A stretch of DNA of 64,000 nucleotides from Epinephelus fuscoguttatus (lineage: Eukaryota > Chordata > Actinopteri > Perciformes > Serranidae). Below are positions 6,801 through 63,843 of this stretch, one piece after another. A program made the position numbers and the translations under genes. The notes below the pieces were generated by a model. The model made no database searches and was not told where the DNA came from. It saw only the letters and a list, made by a program, of their open reading frames with translations. The DNA is taken from NCBI RefSeq assembly GCF_011397635.1, contig NC_064761.1, forward strand, positions 41,442,143-41,506,142, given 5' to 3'. Every line of letters starts with the position of its first letter. Position 1 is the stretch's first letter.

Positions 6801-9800
6801 TATTCACACAGTCTTTGAGGGTGTTCACTGTATGTGACAGCGCTGGTCGAAAGAAATTGAAAAGTCTTTTACTTTTCAGAACGGTTTCAGAACTTACTTC
6901 CTTTTTTCAACTTTAAATTATGTCCCCAAAGGAAAAAATTGTCAACGTCTGCTTTATCAAATACGATAAAGTTTTCAGTAGGTTCATCTCACTGCAGCCA
7001 TTTTTTTGCAGCCGCAAAATGTTTGTTGTGTTATGTAGTGTGAAGTTGAATTTGTATTTGTCATATTAATAACTTACATAATGAAAAAAATTGATTCTTG
7101 GAACTGTGTGACGATACTATACTGCCACACAAAAGTATCCTGACACTATGCTGTGTCAATATTTTCCCCCACCCCTACTGTTTACGCACTTTCAAGTTTA
7201 TGCTGAGTCTCGTTGGCTTCTGTCTGTAAATGAGTTGAATTATCTTTGAGTCCTTCGGCCCTGTTGACGAGGCCTCCCTCCTTCACATCCTAATGGACAG
7301 AAACAGAATCATATCAGTCTTTTATTCTCATTACCATTGCTAAACATTGAGGTTACATTACTAACAGCACCTGAGTAGGGCTGGGTATCGGTACTTGAAA
7401 TAACCCAGTACCAAGTGGTATTTTAACTTCTCCAGTCAAATGATAAATGCAGTTGATCCTTTTCGTACCCTGATCTGGAAAACAGTGACTACTTGGATGG
7501 TTTTGCTCGCAGCCAATCAGCACAAGCATTATTCTAAATGGCACCTGAGGTTAGCCCTCTACTGCAGCAGCTACAATCCATTTAAGCCCCGTTTCCACCA
7601 AGCAGTACGGGTGTGCATGGTACCAATAGAACTGTTCTATAACACCTCTGTTGGGGTACCTTGCACACAGATCTGGTACTAAAAGACAGAGCTGTGAACA
7701 CTGCAGTCTGATTGGTCAGTAGATCATCTTCAAGCGTTTATATTAATTTCGACCGGGTTGCGTGAACTGGTTCCAAAGGTACCATACCGAAAGTGTTTGG
7801 TGGAAACGGGGCTTTAGTCTGTGGTGTATTGAAGTTGTATGGATCAGAAGTTCAGCGTGCCAAGATGCCGCCAAAATGTTCAAAAGAATGGTATAGTGCA
7901 CACCTGTGGCATCTGGTGGCATTTTACGCAACCAAGTGCTTCCACTCATGTGATGGGTATCAAATAAAGTTGGAAAAAAAAGTATCAAATGAAGTAATAT
8001 TGATATCTTAAAGGGTACTGGTTTCGGTACTGGTATCTTAATTTTTTAAACGATACTCAGCCCTACACCTGAGTTACCTTTGAGGCCTGATCAACAGCCT
8101 CTCTGGACTGATTTGCTGCCATCTCTGCCTCTTCTAAGGCCTTTATGATGTTATTATAGACTCCTACACCCAGCACACTGTGCAGGTCAGTACCGTTGGT
8201 AGAGTTATGAAGCATCCTGCAAAAACATAAAGTCAACATAAACACTACAGTTTTATCTATCCACTTTCTTTAGCTCCTCTGTTTCACACTCACTGCTGAA
8301 ATTCTGCTGCTTCTCTGTTGAGCTTCTCTGCATGCTCCTCAGCTTTGTTAACGATATCCACCTTTGTCTTAATCTGGGCGATGTTGTTTAACTTCTTTAA
8401 GAGTTCCAGCTTGGCACCGTCTAACTGAGCTGCGTGATTCTCAAATTCCTGCAGTGTAAAGACAATAAACTCAGTTTGAACACTCAAAATCTTGCCTCCT
8501 GTAATCATGGCAGTAAAAGATGTCTGCTTACGCTCTTAATTTCCTCAAGCATTAAAAAGACGTCGGTGGTGTTCTTTAGCAGGTCTCTAGTCATTCCAGT
8601 CACAGGAAGGAGCGCACTTTGTTCCCCCTCCAGCTGAGACTGAAGATGCTGGCAAACGTTGAACAAAGAGAGATGAAAACATCAGTGTGATGCTACAAAG
8701 AGAGAGAACTGTATGATCCGACATTATATGCCAGCTATGTTTCATGTCACCTCCAGATGCTGTAGGGTAGCACCACTCTTCAGGTTGAGGCTCTGTGTCC
8801 TGTTGACTCTGTCCTTCGTGTCTGACAGCAGCACAGCCACTTCCCTCAGAGCAGAGTCTGAGGCCATCAGTGACTCTGCAGTCTGATTTAACACAGCCTG
8901 GTTGGTTTCCACAGGATCTGTCATGTTCCTGATTATGTCCAGCACTGAGGAGGACACACAGACTTTGGATTTTACAAGTTGAGACAATCTACACTGTTGC
9001 ACTGATGGTAATTTGCAAGATTGTAGATCATGATTATTGAACACTGACTAAAAAAACGTCTGTTTCTCAACAACCAGAGCTGCATATTTATATTAACCTA
9101 CAATAACATTTTATCTTTGTTGACCTTTTATTCACTGGTTTAATTGTTCATGTCTTTTGTTCATTCAAACGTGAAACAACCCAATCGCCAGAGCAAATGT
9201 TGGCACTGAACCTTTTTGCAAACCAGGTGTATGTCATTTGTATGTTTCATATGTAGCAGATTATGTTGAAACTAACATGTGATTACAAACACGGCTGGAA
9301 ATGTCCTGAACTCTCAATAAAATATCCACTTTCGAAACTCGGTCTGATTCTGAAGTAGCTGAATACCGGCGCTTGGGTAGCGACTTCTGCATCAGACACT
9401 GATGAAAAAAGCCATCCTTTCACTTTGGCATGAAAGGCTGCTGAGCGCTGTTGGTCAGTAGCACCGCCTGACAGTGTCAGAGAGAAACGCAGCTGGACAA
9501 CAACGTAAGGGGCAAAAAGTCCAAGTAGGGCAGGGTGTTGGATGGGTCCAACGATGACTGACTTTTACCCTAGAGGCCAGTGTTCACTTTCCGTATGAAT
9601 GTAGAGCCATACCCTGTTATTATTTTGTAAACCTAACCACCTGCTTCCGTTGCCTTAAAGGGATAGTGCACCCAAAAATGAAAATTCAGCCATTATCTAC
9701 TCACCCATATGCCGATGGAGGCCCTGGTGAAGTTTTAGAGTCCTCACATCCCATGCGGAGATCGGTGGGGGGAGCGGCTAGCACACCTAATGGCAGACGG

Positions 9801-12800
9801 CGCCCCAGACTAACGTCCAAGAACACAAAATTGAATCCACAAAGTATCTCCATACTGCTCGTCCGTAGTGTTCCAAGTGTGCTGAAGCCCCGACATAAAA
9901 AGTTGTTTGGAAAAATGTCATATGAACTCTGTTTTTAGCCTCACTGTAGCCTGTAGCTCTGACTGCTTCTCTGTGCTCCGCGCTCATGTGTGTGTGAGAC
10001 CAGTGAAAGCATGAGCTTTGCTCACCCGTGTTTACATCACAGGACACGTGCACCACAGGGAGACAACAGCAACCACAGTAGCTAAAAGATAATTTGCACT
10101 ACGGTCTTTTAGCAAAGGACAGCCCAACATGTCTGAAGACGTTGAAATTGAGGAGGAACAGCATTTCTTTGTTGAGCCGTATTTGTTTGAGCCCGAGTAT
10201 ACGGACGGAACTCAGGCTACTGGACGAAGCAGCCGCCGCAGCTCATGAGCCTCAGCCACCCGCGGAATACCAGAGTCAAGCACTGGAAACCTGGTGGTGT
10301 AGTTGTTTCAAATGCAAAGCAGTGCCAATGGATGCTGCTCAGACTGGGAATTGGCGATGCCTGCACTTGAGAATCTGGACATCAGTACTGACGAGACTGC
10401 TGCTTTTCAGAGATCACCGATCATCCTGAGCACGCACACGTGAATGCGGAGCACAGAGCAGTCAGAGCTACAGGCTACAGTGAGGCTAAAAACAGAGTTC
10501 ATATGATGTTTTTCGAAACAACTTTTTATGTCGGGGCTGAAGCACACTTGGATCACTACGGACGAGCAGTATGGAGATATTTTGTGGATTCAATTTTGTG
10601 TTCTTGGACGTTAGTCTGGGGCGTCGTCTGCCATTAGGTGCGCTAGCCGCTCCCCCCACCGATCTCCGCAAGGGATGTGAGGACTCTAAAACTTCACCAG
10701 GGCCTCCATCGGCATATGGGTGAGTAGATAATGGCTGAATTTTCATTTTTGGGTGCACTATCCCTTTAACCTAACCACGTGCATGTGTTGACTAACCGTA
10801 ACCACGGTGCATGTGTTGTTGAAGGGAAAAAATATCAAATTCCGATGCTGTACCATCGTAGTTCATTTATTTTGAAAGGGAACTGCACATTTCCTCTCAA
10901 AACCGAAGTGTATTTTGAAAAAACAGAATGCGTGTAAAAGGCTGAAGTTGACATGACATCAACTACAGATGCACCCAGACAACAGATGCACCCAGGCTAC
11001 CTTACACATCATATGTCGACATGGAAAGTCGATGACCAAGCAGCCCATTGTGACGTAGTTGTTGGTTTTTATGGCTACAAACACAACTGAAAATGTCCCA
11101 AACTCTGGTTAAAAAACATCCATTTTTGTCGTTAGAAACATGGCTGAAAATGTAACATATTGGTGTTTTGCAGAATCTTACAATGCCAGCATTTCAACAT
11201 TTGCAGAGATAGTTGGGGTTAAGCACTGACCTTGGTTGATTAGGCTCAGGATGGCACCTGAACAAATCCAGTTTCTGGTACGGATTGGTGGCAGTACCTC
11301 TAAAGATCAGTCCAGGCTAGCTGTTTCCCCCTGCATCGAGGCTTTATGCTAAGTTGTACCATCATATTTAGGGTACGGATATAAGAGCACTATCACTCGT
11401 CCTTTCTAGGTCTTGAAAAAAGTAAATACTCCCAAAATGATGGGGAGTACTAAATCAAGATTTTAGAGTCCAAGTTTTTTCTTTTAAAATGAGTTATTTT
11501 TCTGCGAGTGCCGCTGAGAGGGTTATGAATCTTCTTGAAGAGAAGTGTTTGTTGTGGTGGTTGCAGCTTTAAAAGTGGGAGAGTTGTGAATCGTTGTAAG
11601 TGGCTGCCCTAGATGTGCCTTCTGCTTCACATCATTGTGAAGTGAGTGTGATTTGCATCATCATGGTGAGGAGCCAAACAACAGGTGCACCATTTCACTC
11701 ATGAGCTCAGCATAACCTCTACGCCAGAAAACAACCAATGAATACATTTCAAGGAAAATCTCACAGTGGTGTGCATCCTCCTGCTCTCTGCCAGCCCGGC
11801 CTCTCTGAGCAGCGCAGCCTCGCTCTCTCATCTCCTGCACGATGCGCTGAGCCTCCTCCATCATCCTGGCTCTGTCACTTTGAGACTGAGTAGCCGACTC
11901 TCCAGGTTTCACCTCAGTTTGCTGCTTTATCAAATCTGACACATCACAATAACAGAGACACTGCTCTTAATGACACACCTGAGGCCAATTCAGTTTCCTT
12001 TCTAGTCCTACAAAGTCACAGACCACTCTCAGGCTTGGCCCAGTCTGACTTCAGCCAGCCCACAGAGCAGTGGGTAATGTCACAGCAGTGTAAACACATC
12101 AATCATACTAATGTTAACTGATGTACCTTGTATTGCTTTGAGGAGAGTTTCAGCTTCAGAGAGAAGATCCTCCGCCTTTAACTTTGTTTCACTGGCATTC
12201 TGCAAGACTTCCTCCAGATCTGATACAGCTTCAAGTGTCTGGATATGTGATAGAAATGTCAAAATTGTGTCAACATGTGCTTTTAGATGAATTTATGTAC
12301 ATTAATGCAGCATTCTGTGGATGAAATGTGCTGTACTGAAAATGCAGTTATTCTGGTGGAGTTTTAGTTTTTAATTAACTGTTGGAAATTCACTCCAGGT
12401 ACCTCGTCAGTCAGTTGACTCAAGTCATCTCTGACAGCATCCACATCTGCTTCCAGCTGTTCAACCTTTGGATCCAGGTGTCTCATGGCGGTGCTGTACC
12501 TCCAAACCCGAATCTGCAAAACACGGGAGGTGGGAAGTTTTTTCTTTTGGCAAATGCTTTGGCACGCACTTAAGAGACTTTTTTAAAGAGACAGTTCACC
12601 CTAAAATTAAAAATACATATTTTTCCTCCAACCTGTAGTGCTATTGATCAGTCTAGATTGTTTTTGGGTGAGTTGCCAAGTGTTGGAGATATCACCAGTA
12701 GAGATTTCTGACTTCTTTAAAATAACGTAGATGGCACTTTGTCTCTTTTCAGAAATCATGACTCAAGATAATCCACAGACCTTGAGCAGTTTCATGTCGG

Positions 12801-21425: not shown

Positions 21426-24400
21426 TCATAGAACAGGGTACAAGGCGTAGCTCGCAATGCCACATGTGTTTCTGCCGTCTCTGATCATTCGCATGTAGCC
21501 GCTTTCACCCCAACTGCTTCCCCAACTAAAAAAAACAAAATAAAACAGGGATTCATATTAACGAAATACAAGAAAAGTGTACATGTGATAACAAAAAATG
21601 TTGTGTTCAACAAAATCAACCCATGTTACTATATGGAGGGAAGGGTTCTCTGACCTGTTTTTGATGATCCAGTAGTCTTGGCCTCCCTCAGAGCCATAGC
21701 CAACCAGCAGCACCGCGTGACTCAGATTGTTCGGATTACAGTTGGGCTCATCGTATATTCCTGCAAAGGAAATTTCAACCTGCATTAATTTATTGTTTGG
21801 CCACTTGGGGGCAGCAGAAACAAGCTGTAAAGACAACACTGACATATTATCACCTTTTAAGGCATAGTTGCTCAAAGTGCGGCCCATTAGCAGCCATTGT
21901 GTGTCACCTCCAAATGTTACATGAAATGCATCCATTACATTTTAATCATCCACGGGCAATTTCAATAATTTTACCTGCAATATCTCACATTTAATACGCT
22001 ACTCCACTACTGCATCAAACTATAGCTCCCTAATGAGCGTCTGTCAGGGTAGGAATGACAGCTTGTAGGAAACCTTGCTAGTGTTGCGGAAATCACATTA
22101 GGTCATCAATGTTACAGCTAAAATAAGTTAGCTTAGCAGACAACTTTAATGTGGAGGTGAGCTGGAAAAAGCCACAATAGCAAAACACTGTATGGTTGAG
22201 AAGAAACGGAAGTTTCGGGAAAAATGGATTAACTCTCACTTCATCGGACCTCAGGGGACAGTCATCTGCAAACAGGTTGATGCAGAGCTCAAGGAAATTA
22301 TTGTTTAACGCCATTATGGGACAAATCATAAATCCTATGGCAAATTCATGAGTTAAGAGTGCAAATGTAAGGTTGAACAGTTTCAACCAGATCAGTACAA
22401 GTTAATAAGACAAACCTGTTAGCACAGGCTACAGTTAAAGACATCAGGTAAGGAGTGACAGTACATTTCATTAAGAGGCATGTTTACGTCCACTTGATGA
22501 TTCTAATTCCAATTTTCATTCTTCTTTTAGCTCTGTCATACATGGCTTTTTCCACAGTTTTTGTCTGCTCTTTAGCACTGAGCAGGGAGCGTACAGTGAG
22601 TTTATCAGAACCAAAAACAGTGAAGTTGCAGACTAAAACAATGAGCTGAAACATGCTGCAAAGCTCACTACTGGTTTGTCACTTTGAGCAACATAAGTGA
22701 TTTGATTCCTTTGTTAGTATGAAAATATTGATTACGCCAGCTAAAAAATATATATAAACATTAATCACTAACATAATGATTGTATAGAGGAAGTATTTTA
22801 ATATTAACCTGAGCTGTAGAACAAGAAGCTTGCATGATCTGCATCAACAGCTACTGTGATTGGACCGATAGTTGCCACGGCATCAGCCAGAGCCTGCTCA
22901 TCTCCTTTGGGTATGAACCTGTAGTCTCTGATATGTGCAACTGCAAGTCTGCTGTCGTAGTAACAGGGCTGGGTGTCCTGTGGAGAGAAATACAGAGCGA
23001 GAAATTAACAGACACAGGTTAATTAACTGGTTTATGCTGCTTTGAGGCGGAGTTAGCAGCCTCACCACTGAGGTGTATGGGTAGGTGCTGGTCGACTGCA
23101 GCCCGTTGCTGATCACATAGTCGTAGGCGTTGGCCATCCAGGCACCGTTGCAGCCATAGGTACCATAAGATCTGGAGCAGTCCACCAGGTTTTGTTCACT
23201 CAGAGATACAAGCTGACCTGTCCTCTTGTATATTTGTCCCTCAATAGCTCCTGTAGTGCTGAAGGCCCAGCACGAGCCACAGTAACCCTGTGAACATCAT
23301 TTAAAACATAATGTAGATTTGAAGGTGTTCATAATTCAGTCCACATAAAACCCACGTAATATGAATTTATACATTTCTTACCTGGTCTTTCACCTCAGTG
23401 ACATAACCCTTTTTCCTGTAGTCCACAAACAAAGTGTCGTACTTCTTAGCATTGTTACGCAGCCTCCTGGCCGAGACGGTCTTCCCTCTCTTCACAAATT
23501 GGGAGTCGATCACGGCACCTTGCAAAACGTGGTACTCTTGTCTCGTCTACACATGGAGAACATCAGAAAGATTGTTCAAAGGAGGCGTTTCATATCTGGG
23601 GAAATTCACTAACTTATTCTGCATTACCACTGCATGGGACGGCACGGCTTAACTCAACTCACAATATTTTGTTTTTCTACACGAAAAAGTTGATAGTACC
23701 GGGAACCTGATTTTTTTTTTTTGTGGCACTACCTCAGTCGAGATTCCAAGCGAGCTGAATCAATTACAGGAGGTGGAGTCAAAACACTGCAGACCACTGA
23801 CATCCTGCACAACCCCACTATTTTTAAATACAACTCAGTCTCACTCCAAAGTCGTCAAATACCGGTACTTGGGCAGTGACTTCCAGCATCAGACAAAAAA
23901 TGCTATCCTTTCACGTTGGTATGGTACGTGGCAACCTGGCGGCATCAGGGGAAACACAGCCAGACAACAACATAAGTTAAGAGGGTGAAAGTCAGAGTAG
24001 GGCAGGTGGCAGGAGTGGCGAATGGGTCCAACAACCACTGACTTTCACCTTATAGGTTGGTGTTCACTTCCTGTATGATTGTAAAGCCAAACCCTGTTCT
24101 TTTACCCTAAACCCAACTACCTGCATGTGTTGGCTAAACCTAACCATGTGCATTTGTTGTCGAAGAAAAAAACAGCAAATTGTGGTGTTGTACTGTCGTA
24201 GTGCTTTTATTTTGAAAGAGACTGTATGCAAACTGTACATTTCCTGTGAAAACGGAAGTGTATTTTGAAAACAGACAATGCATGTAGCAGACTGAAGTTG
24301 ACATGGTGTCACAGAACGTCAACAACCAACGCATCCAGGGAACATCCGTCATATCTCAACATGGAAAGTCCATGACCAAACGTCGATATGTGAGGAGGTC

Positions 24401-32400: not shown

Positions 32401-35400
32401 TGGGCACAACACGCAGGTGAGGACAACTGGTAGTAGATCATAAGCAGCACATGTCAAAGAGGAAGCTATGAAAATTGCTGACACAGTGCAAAAAAAGCAA
32501 ATATAGCAAGGAGAACCGCCAAGCAGACAAAGCTGGGGTCGGCCTTCGCTTTCACTGGCGATAGTGTTTACAAACAGTAGCTGACAATTCCTGCATAGTA
32601 TACCTTTAAACAAGTAAGTTTCCAGTCTTTGTGGTAAGCTAAGCTGTTTTTCCTCTGGCTGGACATATTTAGCGTACAGACATGAGAGTGGTGTTGATCT
32701 TCTCATCCAGCTCTCTCTGTATTCCCCAAAATGGCCTTTCATCAGTGCTGTGGTGGCAGCTGATGAGGTGGGTGTATGATTAGGTAAAAGGGTAGGTAAC
32801 CAGAGAGGAGATGAGGGTATACTCTCCTTGAGTGACCAGGGAGGAGACCAGGGCTGCAAACTCTGTCTCGTCTTTTAGATTACTTTAAGAAAACACTTTT
32901 TAAAATTGCTTTTCTGTGAATTCACTCAAGTTTTATTAAAGTTTATTTGACAGTGTGTTTTTCTTTGTGCTCAGTTTTTGGCTCTTTAGTTCATTTCACT
33001 CTCTGTATGTTTTTAAATGTGTTCTGTTTGTATTGTGAGGGACTTTTTAACTGTGTTTTAAAGGCGTTATATAAATAAAGTTTGGTATTATTATTTATTA
33101 TTTTCAGACAGGTTCCACTGCCCTGTTCTTCGCCTCCCAGCATGGACACAATGAAATTGTGAAGCTCCTCTTTGAATTTGGTGCCTCTACTGAGTTCCAG
33201 ACAAAGGTATGCTGCAGGGCACAATGACGTGTATCACAGTCTGTAATACTGGGTGTGATGGAGACTGCTGCATCTCCGCTGTGACTCAGAGTGCTTCATG
33301 TCGAAATAAAGAGACAAATATGATGCAAAAAAATATGCTGAACACTTAAGAGACGCTCTCTCTGCAGCCTGTAACACACAGTGGTGACTTTAACAATCAT
33401 TCTCACTGTCAGCTTGTTTTCTTGTGTGTTTTGTGGCAGGACGGCGGCACAGCTCTCACAGTCGCTTCCCAGTACGGACACTCCAAGGTGGTGGACACCC
33501 TGTTGAAGAATGGAGCCAATGTTCACGACCAGCTGAATGTGAGCCAAGTCTTCTGTCCCCTCTCACTGTCAGTACCTCTGTCTGTCAGGAACATGATGGT
33601 TAGTTGCACACAATGTCCCAGCAGCTGGAATCCAGCCGCTCAGGTTTCTGCAGACTGCTGAGTCAGACCTGACTGACATTTGGCAGGATTAGCGTCTGTC
33701 CTCAGGCCGGGGAAAACAACCTGACTGCACATACATATATTTATAGAATAGTATTAAAATAGCAACATGTTGTGAATGCACTTTTTATCAGCTGGAAGGT
33801 TTCTTAACAGTTTTTAGAGATCCTGGTACAGCAGGAAAGTGTTACCCTGCATGTGACATGATTCTTTTATGTTTCAGGATGGTGCCACCGCTCTGTTTCT
33901 GGCTGCCCAGGAGGGTCATGTGAATGTGATTCGTCAGCTGTTGTCATCCGGTGCCAAGGTTAACCAAGCGAGGGAGGTAATGTCCTCACCTCTCTAGCAC
34001 CTCTCTAGATTTAAAATACACAGTCACACATACGGTCACCTCTTTAGCTCACAGCTCCTCCTCCTCATCCCTCCATGCCTGCATCGACTCTAACATTTCT
34101 CTCTCTTTTCACCTCTTCCCTCTTTTGTCTCTGCATCCCTCCCTCGTCTATGTGTCCTCCAGGATGGCACTGCCGCCTTGTGGATGGCAGCTCAGATGGG
34201 TCACAGTGAGGTGGTGAGGGTGCTGCTCTTACGTGGTGCTGATCGGGATGCTGACAGACAAGTATGTAGTTCTTTTAGAATTATCTTAGTACATAAAAAT
34301 GAACATAAAGGGATTACTGATTGATGTAGATTAGTCAAGAACATTTGTATTCTATAGGCCTGTGTACTACTCGTACAAATAAAATGATGTCACTCTATTT
34401 CTATGATACTATTACACACATAATATCTCAGAGTTTGAGCATCTGCAGAGCAAACGCTTTCTGCTGATGAGGACCATGTAATATAGCCGAAAGCCTCAGA
34501 GTGAGTGAGTAAGAGGACCTTGAGTCCTGACTGTTTTGTTAAATGATTGTATGCGTTCTCTTGTCTTTCAAGGATGGATCAACAGCGTTATTCAAAGCCG
34601 CGTATAAGGGACACAACAGCGTCATCGAGGAACTTCTCAAGTTTTCTCCTTCAGTTGGACTTCTCAAGGTAAAGCATGCTGCTATTGACTTTAACATTTT
34701 GGGAAATTTGCTTACTCACTCACAAGAGCTGAGTGAGAAGATCAATACCACTCTAATGTCTGTACGGTATATTACGTAGCTACAGCGAGGAGATGATGAG
34801 CTCGGCATACACGATAAGACTCCAGGAAGTTCCTGTACCGGGCCAAGAAATAGTCTGACACAAAACACAAACCTCAACTCATTCGAGTTTTATTGTACAG
34901 GGTTAAATCAGATGATTGATACCTCTCTCGCATCTATTTATTCAAAGTTCCAGCCAGCAGCCAGTTAGCTTAGCTTAGCATACAGACTGGTAACAGAGGG
35001 AAACAGCTTGGCTTTGTTCAGAAGGTCAGAGCCCACAGCCAAAAAGTTGATTCTGCATACAAACATATTCGTACTAAAATATTTAGTATTACATGTTTAC
35101 AAGTAAATGTAAAGTTACTCTTCCACTATATTGAGACAGACGCATCACTGCTACATAAACTAGCTGTAGAACAGTGCTTGTGTAGACAGGATATTTTAAT
35201 GAGAACGAAAAACAATACCCATGTATATGTGGACAAGGCCTAAGTATGAAGTAAAATTAAGCATCTGGAATCTGGCGCTTTGGAAAGCAGAGCTAGATGA
35301 TAAACAAACATGGCAGCACACCGGTAAGGTAAGACAACACGTTTACATGTCATTTTCTATATGTTCTCTGACATTTATCCTAACGATATGAGGCGGTCTT

Positions 35401-40438: not shown

Positions 40439-49198
<8,760 letters not shown>

Positions 49199-57019: not shown

Positions 57020-57143
57020 CCCATCAGGTGACAGCGTTGGAAAGTGCGAGCAAACTCAGCGAGGGGCGGCGCGCTCGTTTGTGTGTGTCCTGAGCGGGGC
57101 GGGTTCATGTGTGTAAACAGATGAGTCCAACATGGTTTGTACC

Positions 57144-57610
57144 ATTAAATTAAATTAAATTAAATTAAATTAAATTAAATTAAATTACAAAGTCAAAGAA
57201 AACAAAAGAAAACCATTACATTAAATTAAATTAAAATTAAATACAATACAATAAAACAACATAAAATCAAATGAAATGAAATAAAATACACCCCAGTACA
57301 ATACAATACAATAAAACAACATAAAATAAACAAAATTAAATTAAAAAAAGTCAAAGAAAAGAATACAATAAAATCAATAAACACAATAAAATAAATACAA
57401 TACAATAAAATAAAGTCAAAGAAAAGAATACAATAAAATGCAATAAATGCAGCACAATAAAATGAAATAAAAATAAAACACATCACAATACAATTCAATA
57501 AAATAAAATTAAAAAGTCAAAGAAAAGAAAACAATACAAAACAATGAAACAAAACACATCACAGTACAATTCAATACAATGCAATAATATAAAATAAAAA
57601 AAAATAAACT
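57144..57610. repeat. (AAATT)n microsatellite and A-rich low-complexity tract
   Basis: Perfect pentanucleotide ATTAA units to about 57187, then a degenerate AATAAAATACAA-type tract with a repeated AAAGTCAAAGAAAAGAA segment at about 57190, 57345, 57413 and 57515. Open frames here are low-complexity shadows. Confidence 0.9.
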
Positions 57611-59149: not shown

Positions 59150-62100
59150 ATGGCGACGGCAATATACTTGGAACATTACCTTGACAGTGAGTATTCGGTG
59201 ACACACTGTGCTGGTATTAACGTTTCGAACATGTGACGTGTGTTTGAGGTTTAGTTTGACTGTATCGAAGACTTTTTCGCTCGGCGGATGACTGGCAGAC
59301 AGCAGCATAGCGCGTTAGCAACTAGCTGCTAGCTCGCTAGCTAAGTGGTTAGCATCGCGATATAATCGTTGGTGGTATAAAGTTAGGCAAACTCCACATG
59401 CATGGTGTTAAACTCTATCTGGGGGCAGTGTGCGCTCCACCTGGGCACATGTGAGATATTTAATAGAGTTTGTAGTCAGCTGTCAGTGTCGGGCTCTGTC
59501 ACAGGAGCTTCCTAGGTGACCTAGAAATTAGCACTGGTTTTATAAGGTTGTTTAAAATGATAGTTATACTCAGTGCTATGAGACTTTAAAACTGCATCCA
59601 TTTTGGTGTAAATGTGTGTTTGTTGTAGGAAGGCAGACACCGTGCATTTACAACCTGTTGATAACCGCGTTTCCCGTAAGCATTACGCGCCGGGGCGGGG
59701 TTTTTGAAGCCATATAGCATAACGTTACTGAGCTGTCAGACAGTGGGTAGCCCTGTAGGCTGCAGCCAGCTCACACGTCTCTCCTTTAGGTCAATATTAA
59801 TCTATATACTGTTAGATATATTATACACTTATCATGTTATATTAACATTATCATCAATGTCAATATAAATCGAGTTATCCTGCATATACTGACTGTAATG
59901 TTGAGGTGACTGATGGTATAGGATCAACAGGAAGACACAACTATCTTAAAACAAATGTGTGTTAAAGGTTTAACAAAAAACTTATTTTGCAAATGTGAAA
60001 TTGGTTTTGTAAGTGGCAGAAATGTACATTTTATTACATTTCAAATAATTACATTTCTGGACAATAATTTATTTTAGGGTGTATAAATCAAATCAAGTTT
60101 ATTTATATGGCACATTTAAAAACAACCAAGTTGAACAATGTGCTGTACAAATTAAAAGAGTGACACCAGTAAGAACGGTTGCATATGTAAAAAGGATGAT
60201 ATAATAAAATAGTGTCAGTGGAAGGAGAGCATTTGATTGAGAGCTTTGGAGCAGCTACTGCAAAGGCATGGTCTCTGTCACCCACCAGTCTCGATCGTGG
60301 GACAGTTAAAAGTCATTGTTCAGAGGATCGAGAGATGGTAAGAGGTCGGGAGTTGGAGTAGGGGTAGAGAAGTTTAACAATATACTGGGGTGCCAGCCCA
60401 TGTTTGGAGTTATAGTTTGTAATTGATCATATAGCCCTGTGTCGCCCTAAAAATGCATTAATCTGTGAATTTGCATTCAGTTACAGGCTAATTATGTGTT
60501 TGCACATTTTTAAAGGTCCCATATTATTAGAGATGTACCGATACCACTTTTTCCTTCCCGATACCAATTCCAATCCCTGAACCTTAGGTATCTGCCAATA
60601 CCGAGTGCCGATCCAATACCAGCGCGAAAATAAAAATGGATGGGATATGAATTGTTGTATGTGTCAACTCCTAAAACTCTATGTAAAATATTAAGAAATA
60701 CATACATAGTTTTAGGTGCATACTTGCATTTGGGTTCCCTACTAGAAAATGTTTACATGTTTGAAGGTGAAATAAAAATACATTTTTTAAATATACCTGC
60801 AGTCAGCCTGTGTTTGAAATCCTCCAGTTTCACACCTGTCTCTTTAAGCCCACCTCCTGAGAAAGCCCAGTTTGCTCTGATTAGGGTTGCAACAGTTTAC
60901 CAGTTTCACGTTATACGATGATATTAAAATTAATGGTTATCGTACCATGCACATTTGCTTATCTACAATATTAGCAAAAAATGCGACTGGACAGAAAACC
61001 TCAACTTTGTTTTCCAGTGGGAGATTTTTTTACACATACTTCCATTAAAAATGGTTTGAGTTTCAAATAATGTGATAATAAATTGTTTGTTATATAACCC
61101 TTCTGTTTTAATTCCTTTAAGGGTCATTCTGATTGTTGATAATAATACTAGTAATAATGTAATTATCATCTCAGCATCTCTGCATAATCACTACAGCCTG
61201 GGAATGACAGTAACGGCACTGTAGCGGCAGTTTCTACCATTGGATAGTATAATTGTGACATCACAGCTTCACAGACGTCCTGATGCCTCATTCAAAGTAG
61301 GGATGGGCAGCACAAGCAAAAACACTATTCGAAAATCGTGGCAACTATTTGACAATTTTTCGAAGTCTCTGCATGTTTCTCCTGTTGGTGGAAGAAAAAC
61401 CAACTGTAAAAGCTGAAGAGGTATATAAGCAAGAATTGTGCCTGGTTTTCCAACTGTTATAATCCTATTGTTGTGCAGAAAAGAAAAGTGAGATTGACAA
61501 ACTGGCTGAAGAGTACATAGCGAAGGTGAAGAACCTGGCCTCAGAGCAGAGAGTGGAACACCTGCAGAAGATCCAGAATGCCTACAGCAAGTGCAAAGAG
61601 TTCAGTGATGATAAAGTCCAGCTTGCAATGCAGACATATGAAATGGTCAGTCCAAAATGTATAATCTGGTTATGATATATTCCTGATTTGGAGGTGAAAC
61701 CGCACACATGGTCAAATTGTAATCACATGATTATTTTTTTTTTATTGTAGGTGGACAAACATATCCGCCGACTGGATGCAGATCTGGCGCGGTTTGAGAA
61801 TGAGCTAAAGGAGAAACTGGAAGTGAGCGGATACGAAAGTACAGATGGAAGAGCACTGAAAAGTAAGTCGAGGCTTTTACTGTGCGACCAAAACGGTTTG
61901 ATGCACATTTATAAATGTAAATCCTTTCCACAGAGGGTGAATCCCGTGGACTGAGAGAGAAGCGAACATCCAGAGGAAGAGGAAGGAAAGGTTCTGATGA
62001 AGATTCTCCCAAAAAGAAAAAGCTAAAAAACAGGTATGTTTGGTGGCACAGTCAGACTGAGAATTTACCTGTCAGAGTCTGCAATACACATTTTTATCAG

Positions 62101-63570
62101 ACCTGAAAATCCTGTATTACTCTAACCAGTGGTAACTCAGATTACCAATGGCACATTAATTTGCCTCCAATTTAAATTTGTTTATTTCCAATCATTCGGG
62201 GTGGAAATCTCCAGGTGCCTCACGATGTGATTATGATTCAGAGGGTAACAATTCGATAATACAACGATTATTGATGCATCACAATGTTTGATTTCAACAC
62301 ATGGCTTCTTTTTCTCTTTCTTTTAAAATATAGCAGACTGCATTTTTGGTGATCCATAATTAAATTAACAGATTATTTTACTTGCATACAGCGTGGCTCT
62401 TGTCCAGGTCCCTTTCCCCTTCAACCTCCATACCCTCACTTTTAAACCAGGGGGCAACAGTTGGATTGTATCTTCCTGTGGATGCTCACGCTTGTCCATT
62501 GTGGGATTTACGTATATATGGGATGTACACACACCTGCATAGGGTCCAGTGTTTGCATAGCCTACTGTAATATTTCCCCTAAAACAGTTTGCAACTCAAG
62601 TTCTGTTCAATAATATATGGTCTGCATGCTTTTTATTTTGAAAAGTCAACTGCATTGATTCATGACTGAATAGATTTGAAAGCACCTCACAGTCTCCTGT
62701 GTGTAGCAGAATAACATGAGGGGGAGGCCGAGTGCTCTGTTAGTGCTGGTGAAAGCCAAGACACTAAGCAGGTCAGGCACAGGGTCTTTAAAGGTAAAAC
62801 AGACTGAGCAGAGTTATTTTCTTCACCACAGAGGTGTTTTCATTTGGTTAATGCTGCAGCGTGTGTTGGTCAGCTGGTTCACATGCTGATCACTGCTCCC
62901 CTCGTTGATGTATACCCAATGTTCACCTCGCAAATGTAATTGTTTAGACATTAAATTAAAATTAAAAGCTGCAACTGCTGTCGTTGTCATTGTGCTGCAC
63001 TGACTTTGCAGTTGAGTTCCGCCTCCTTTGTTCCGTCAACATCATGTGATGAACAGTTACATAATCGATTATTGACATTTGGAATCGTCCACGTCTGCAT
63101 TGTGATGCATCTAAGCATCGATTTATTTCCCTCCCTTTCCAACTAATCATGCTGTGTGTTTGATGTTGGACCTTCAGCCCAGACCTGAGTGACGCCCTCC
63201 TGCCCATGCAACCATCAGACGTTTTGGACATGCCAGTCGATCCCAATGAGCCCACGTACTGCCTGTGCCACCAGGTGTCATATGGAGAGATGATTGGATG
63301 CGATAACCCAGATGTAAGATTTTATAGAGTTTCTTGTTGAAATTAAATTTGTTTCTTTACCATCAGAACCACATTACTGACCTTGTTTTTCATCCCTCAG
63401 TGTCCTATTGAGTGGTTCCACTTTGCTTGTGTTGATCTCGCCTCAAAACCCAAAGGAAAATGGTAAGAACTCTGAAGGATGTTAACCTAGAGTTGTTCAT
63501 GAAAATATTATTAGACCCCGATCACACAGAAAGCGTTTTCCACGTTGCAAAACACGCTGCGCTGCACTGC

Positions 63571-63602
<32 letters not shown>

Positions 63603-63843
63603 GATTGCCACTAGAGAAAGAAAAAAAGGTTTATCACGTCACGAAAACCGCGAGCAAAAAGCTTCACTCTCATTTAAAACAATTACAAAAAGCCGCCAGC
63701 AGCTGCTAAAACACTTTGTGTGATGGGGGCCCTACTAATGCAGACTTGTCATGATTGTCCTCTTTGCTCTCAATCTTTTTCCCTCCCCTGTCAAATCTCA
63801 CAGGTTTTGTCCGAGGTGCACCCAAGACAAGAAGAAGAAATGA
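59150..63843 (+). CDS. ing5: Inhibitor of growth protein 5, with one expected exon not found
   Basis: Nuclear PHD-finger subunit of HBO1 and MOZ/MORF histone acetyltransferase complexes that reads H3K4me3. Exons seen: 59150-59186, 61479-61645, 61751-61862, 61934-62033, 63178-63313, 63401-63462, 63804-63843; 654 nt, 217 codons. The N-terminus [12 protein letters not shown] and the helix with [15 protein letters not shown] are typical of ING5. A basic nuclear-localisation region (RGRGRK, PKKKKLK) follows, then a complete C4HC3 PHD finger (CLCHQ, CDNPDC, HFAC, CPRC) and a short lysine tail. About 24 residues between exon 1 and the exon at 61479, the conserved leucine-rich dimerisation stretch, are absent: I found no matching exon in 59187-61478 on either strand. 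Both flanking junctions are phase 1, so the shortened frame stays open. Could be ing5a or ing5b. Confidence 0.92.
60065..60430. repeat. Interspersed repeat in ing5 intron 1
   Basis: Starts with AAATCAAGTTTATTTATATGG and continues with TGTGCTGTACAAATTAAA, a very common fish repeat type. A related start occurs near 38825. No coding exon here. Confidence 0.5.
63512..63735. mobile_element. Short MITE in the last ing5 intron
   Basis: Inverse ends GACCCCGATCACACA and TGTGTGATGGGGGCC, with a run of about 25 T in the middle (63571-63597). About 220 bp, sitting between the exons at 63401-63462 and 63804-63843. Confidence 0.6.

Follow-up and report, generated by a model that had tools for sequence, protein, structure and literature searches.

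A splice form of human ING4 that lacks exon 2, ING4-delta-Ex2, is known (Raho et al. 2007, cited in PMC6356015), and according to PMC6356015 every ING4 variant is still nuclear, interacts with p53 and forms the HBO1 complex. A review describes ING4 as a dimer in which each PHD finger binds H3K4me3 independently of the other, ING5 is a dimeric, bivalent reader according to the title of a paper in a reference list, and BRPF1 interacts with the N-terminal region of ING4/5 (PMC9454415). In the fish ing5 gene described here, exon 2 is missing as it is from this splice form of the closest paralogue. However, ING4-delta-Ex2 is one splice form of an intact gene, whereas in ing5 the exon is missing from the genomic sequence itself. 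The shared exon structure of the two genes suggests that the exon boundaries are the same.

The gene lies in a 64-kb window, the whole stretch of DNA that was analysed (C10:41442143-41506142 of a chromosome-scale assembly of 1.047 Gb in 26 contigs), where it occupies positions 59150-63843 of the + strand. The genes and repeats of this DNA suggest a teleost. When joined at canonical donors and acceptors, the seven coding exons of ing5 give one open frame of 654 nt, which ends with TGA and encodes 217 residues, as the earlier note on this DNA had anticipated in stating that the remaining exons read in frame. Exon 1 (59150-59186, 37 nt, donor GTGAGT) encodes 12 residues and one further base, and its peptide matches the N-terminus of human ING5 with an I/M exchange as the sole difference. 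Exon 3 (61479-61645), preceded by TTGTGCAG, is followed in the same frame and on the same strand by exon 4 (61751-61862), exon 5 with the basic region (61934-62033), exon 6, where the PHD finger starts (63178-63313), exon 7 with more of the PHD finger (63401-63462) and exon 8, which carries the TGA at its end (63804-63843). The exon 3 peptide aligned end to end with the human ING5 chains of PDB 5me8 and 5mto (81.8 and 80.7 bits) and reached 66.2 bits against ING4; judged by these scores, the locus resembles ING5 more closely than ING4. As in the human protein, a basic region is present and so, probably, is a PHD finger: the profile PF00628 scored 23.9 bits, slightly short of its cut-off of 24, and the Cys/His ligands are seen by eye in the translation. 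The ING N-terminal domain PF12998 was matched with 63.3 bits (cut-off 23.9) but only over profile positions 32-102 of 102.

Between exons 1 and 3, where two introns and a 72-nt exon 2 are expected, a single phase-1 intron of 2,292 nt was found (59187-61478, + strand). Exon 1 closes with the first base of a codon, and the other two open exon 3; thus the exon 1-exon 3 join stays in frame, and the expected exon 2 is 72 nt long with phase 1 on both sides. The junction predicted from the genomic sequence reads ...CTTGACA|AAAAGAAAAG... In human ING5, 24 residues separate the peptides of exons 1 and 3, and these are absent from ing5 here; ing4 of the same genome (contig C8) has a 72-nt, phase-1/phase-1 exon 2. 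Both comparisons agree with the claim that the junctions are phase 1 and that the missing piece amounts to about 24 residues, or 72 nt.

We scanned the intron on both strands and in all frames with the 24 exon 2 residues, ungapped, for a maximum possible score of 124. The best full-length score was 15, and 100 mononucleotide shuffles gave a mean maximum of 18.0 (sd 4.5, max 33), so that no exon 2 is recognisable in 59187-61478, as had been claimed. Shorter ungapped pieces of exon 2 reached 27 at best, within the range of 40 shuffles (21-31, mean 25.65). When DNA sequences were compared, exon 2 of ing4 from this genome scored 11 against the intron, a value equalled or exceeded by 63 of 100 shuffled exons, while in the control comparison ing4 exon 3 reached 60 against ing5 exon 3, where shuffles went no higher than 15. 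The ing5 exon 3 match of the whole-genome protein search described below takes in about 30 nt of the intron, in which FQLL and a stop face the FQLM of exon 2. This stretch was rejected as an exon 2 remnant: it belongs to the acceptor region and scores 18, and all 40 whole-intron shuffles reach at least 21. No N-run marks a gap, again in agreement with the earlier note, the whole 64-kb window containing zero N.

Outside the intron, the best full-length score anywhere in the window was 30 of 124, and eight flanking 10-kb loci (40 kb on each side, 80 kb in all) gave best scores of 19-33. With nothing above 33, a move of exon 2 to a nearby site was dismissed for the window and 40 kb on each side. 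The tblastn check that had been proposed for the locus, run here on the window, found exons 1 and 3 and then matches with E of 0.29 and above, among the matches listed, which hold no rows for exon 2 alone as query. As controls, the full-length protein scan gave 113 for ing4 exon 2 and 62 each for exons on contigs C13 and C23, which we take to be ING1/ING2-like.

The whole-genome protein search, run with a query containing exon 2 and E up to 10, scored its seven first-look candidates and reported five places: ing5 exon 3 (C10), ing4 exons 3 and 2 (C8), and N-terminal exons on C13 and C23. The exon-2-type matches had identities of 69% (ing4), 46% (C13) and 45% (C23), and no ing5 exon 2 was among the five reported. 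Exons of 45-46% identity were within reach of this search, so that an ing5 exon 2 on these contigs would be expected among its matches, although it scores first-look candidates alone. The Pfam ING profile gave seven matches over the genome, including an ING3-type exon on C22, and ing5 exon 2 was not among them either. Exon 2 is therefore present in ing4 and has counterparts in three other ING genes of this genome (C13, C23, C22), and it is absent from the assembly at ing5 as far as the searches of intron, flanks and genome reach; with it, the first part of the N-terminal coil, which exon 2 encodes in the ING family, is absent from ing5 as assembled. The whole-genome protein search reported a single ing5 exon 3. 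This result fits the figure legend in PMC4007551 that presents a second ing5 as an Ostariophysi lineage-specific paralogue. The literature found, judged by titles and the opening lines of abstracts, held no report of a loss of ing5 exon 2 in fish.

The claim that the intron is rich in repeats was borne out, identified repeats making up about 36% of it (about a third), or 49% if a 284-bp stretch at 60885-61168 is counted in. A first old dispersed repeat (60085-60407, + strand) has listed copies of 71-84% identity in its right block and 75-93% in its left block. Its 3′ edge, 60407, is a possible scar of the exon loss; the window copy has diverged or ends slightly early there, and the edges of the seven copies vary. 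A second old repeat spans 60509-61297 (+ strand) in three pieces (60509-60524, 60710-60884 and 61169-61297), with listed copies of 69-86% identity over 60709-60900. Its left edge, compared by eye and with MAFFT to six of the seven fetched copies (L047 was left out), is AAAGGTCCCATATTAT, 16 bases at about 60509-60524. The right block, 61169-61297, is matched collinearly in three of the seven copies, where about 30 bp separate the blocks, as against the 284 bp of 60885-61168 in ing5. Most simply, the second old repeat is one copy split by two nested insertions.

The first of these insertions is the remnant of a young and abundant short DNA transposon with terminal inverted repeats (60525-60708, + strand), of which the left ~185 bp of ~490 bp are present and the right ~300 bp are missing. 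With the intron as genome query, 3,045 first-look candidates were obtained; 40 were scored, and all 39 non-self matches fell on 60525-60708, with 92-95% identity. Eight of nine fetched copies run on to the right terminal inverted repeat, and 8-bp flanking duplications were seen by eye around several other copies. Because nearly all copies keep their right end, the truncated transposon at first looked promising as the scar of the exon loss. It was dropped since the enclosing older repeat resumes right beside it, at 60710, and the missing tail is most simply a local loss. If all pieces of the second repeat are one copy, exon 2 did not lie between 60509 and 61297; collinearity supports this without proving it, and the exon probably lay outside that interval. 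The breakpoints are then most likely in 59187-60084, 60408-60508 or 61298-61478, and other junction sites may be an edge of the first repeat at 60085-60407 or a crossover inside it.

Of the three options that had been put forward (real exon loss, assembly collapse, or an exon diverged beyond recognition), the first two stand about equally likely. We give an even chance to the reading that the sequenced haplotype carries a genomic deletion of exon 2 and some flanking intron, in what is apparently the only ing5 gene. Such a real deletion is suggested by the intron scans, in which neither exon 2 nor a remnant of it exceeded chance, by the lack of a good match in the window and flanks and of one in the genome protein search, by the retention of exon 2 in ing4 on C8 and of ING-type counterparts on C13, C23 and C22, and by contiguous sequence free of N-runs in which the other ing5 exons form an open frame and have canonical splice sites. 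It also accords with the sole junction seen in the young repeat, which looks local and has no collapse signature, and with the skipping of exon 2 that occurs in human ING4 (PMC6356015). On the other hand, human ING5 and ING4 are nearly identical over the exon 2 stretch, which points to strong constraint and argues against a tolerated loss. The intron also showed no clear deletion scar.

A real possibility, a little short of even, is that the animal has a normal exon 2 and that the stretch of intron 1, exon 2 and intron 2 was dropped from the assembly, collapsed, or left on an unplaced scaffold. Assembly omissions are generally commoner than the loss of a strongly conserved exon, and the near-identity of the exon between human ING5 and ING4 speaks for an omission, as does the repeat content of the intron. 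In addition, the exon 1-exon 3 junction has this one assembly as its sole source, a crossover or collapse within the first old repeat (60085-60407) would not be readily visible afterwards, and the assembly searched may be without unplaced scaffolds. Against an omission, the window has no N and the assembly is of chromosome scale, and the other long repeat pieces are so diverged (mostly 69-86% identity) that they would not readily collapse. The youngest repeat found is also a disfavoured site for a simple collapse, since it sits in an older one that resumes beside it. If the stretch was omitted from the assembly, a chromatin regulator may come to be annotated with a wrong, short protein.

A deletion that is real but polymorphic, present in the individual or haplotype that was sequenced and absent from others, which have exon 2, seems improbable, though a single assembly is the basis here and the loss of one exon in frame could have effects mild enough for the deletion to segregate. 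Least likely of all, to the point of being very improbable, is the reading that exon 2 has diverged but is still there, sits elsewhere in the locus or has given way to another in-frame exon: the intron does hold 24 in-frame open AG...GT cassettes of 60-90 nt, against a shuffle mean of 12.7 (range 6-25, 50 shuffles), but many overlap one another and inspection by eye showed no likeness to exon 2 and no strong donor in any of the 24, nothing exon-2-like rises above chance in the intron, and the window and the 80 kb around it hold no good match, so that a diverged exon, within the reach of similarity searches, finds no support in the protein, DNA or shorter-piece scans.

Should the deletion be real, exon 1 would splice straight to exon 3, exon 2 being a multiple of three with equal phases, and an exon 1-exon 3 transcript would presumably be made. 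Its product would be a protein of 217 residues consisting of residues 1-12, a K, the rest of the N-terminal coil, the basic region and the PHD finger. The loss of 24 residues from the coil would leave the first helix much shortened, and dimerisation would probably be weaker or altered. By analogy with the human ING4 form without exon 2, the protein would still read H3K4me3 and join HAT complexes, and we would expect a working but less dimeric ING5 rather than a dead gene. The earlier note had implied a loss of HAT-complex assembly; this is not established, as ING4 variants including delta-Ex2 still form the HBO1 complex according to PMC6356015. Some effect on complex binding is also possible given the BRPF1 contact of the N-terminal region (PMC9454415).

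A real loss would be a fixed genomic version of a state known from the human ING4 splice form. A more tentative and, on balance, doubtful reading is that the loss has become fixed in a fish lineage with a single ing5, so that all its KAT6/KAT7 complexes using ING5 would carry a short-coil, possibly monomeric H3K4me3 reader. A fixed loss would be an experiment of nature on whether ING proteins need to dimerise: if a vertebrate lives on a single ing5 without these 24 coil residues, bivalent reading would be dispensable for ING5 there, or ing4 would cover for it.

The remainder of the window holds further genes and repeats. Upstream of ing5 are exons of a papain-family protease (21561-23296, - strand), an ankyrin-repeat protein exon (33350-33658, + strand) and a Vps4 C-terminal domain exon (48782-49054, + strand). 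A Tc1-type transposase at 40952-42170 (+ strand) consists of two overlapping frames of 273 and 171 aa from stop to stop and is apparently disrupted; the first frame matches Pfam HTH_Tnp_Tc3_2, and the second was judged by eye. The open reading frames 9558-9938 (+ strand) and 10486-10770 (- strand), in opposite orientation, have KGIVHPKMKIQPLSTHPYADGGPGEVLESSHP and more in common and are two copies of a dispersed repeat, lying inverted to each other within about 1 kb. A long AT-rich simple-repeat tract of TTAAA- and ATAAA-like units lies at 57130-57600, about 1.5 kb upstream of ing5.
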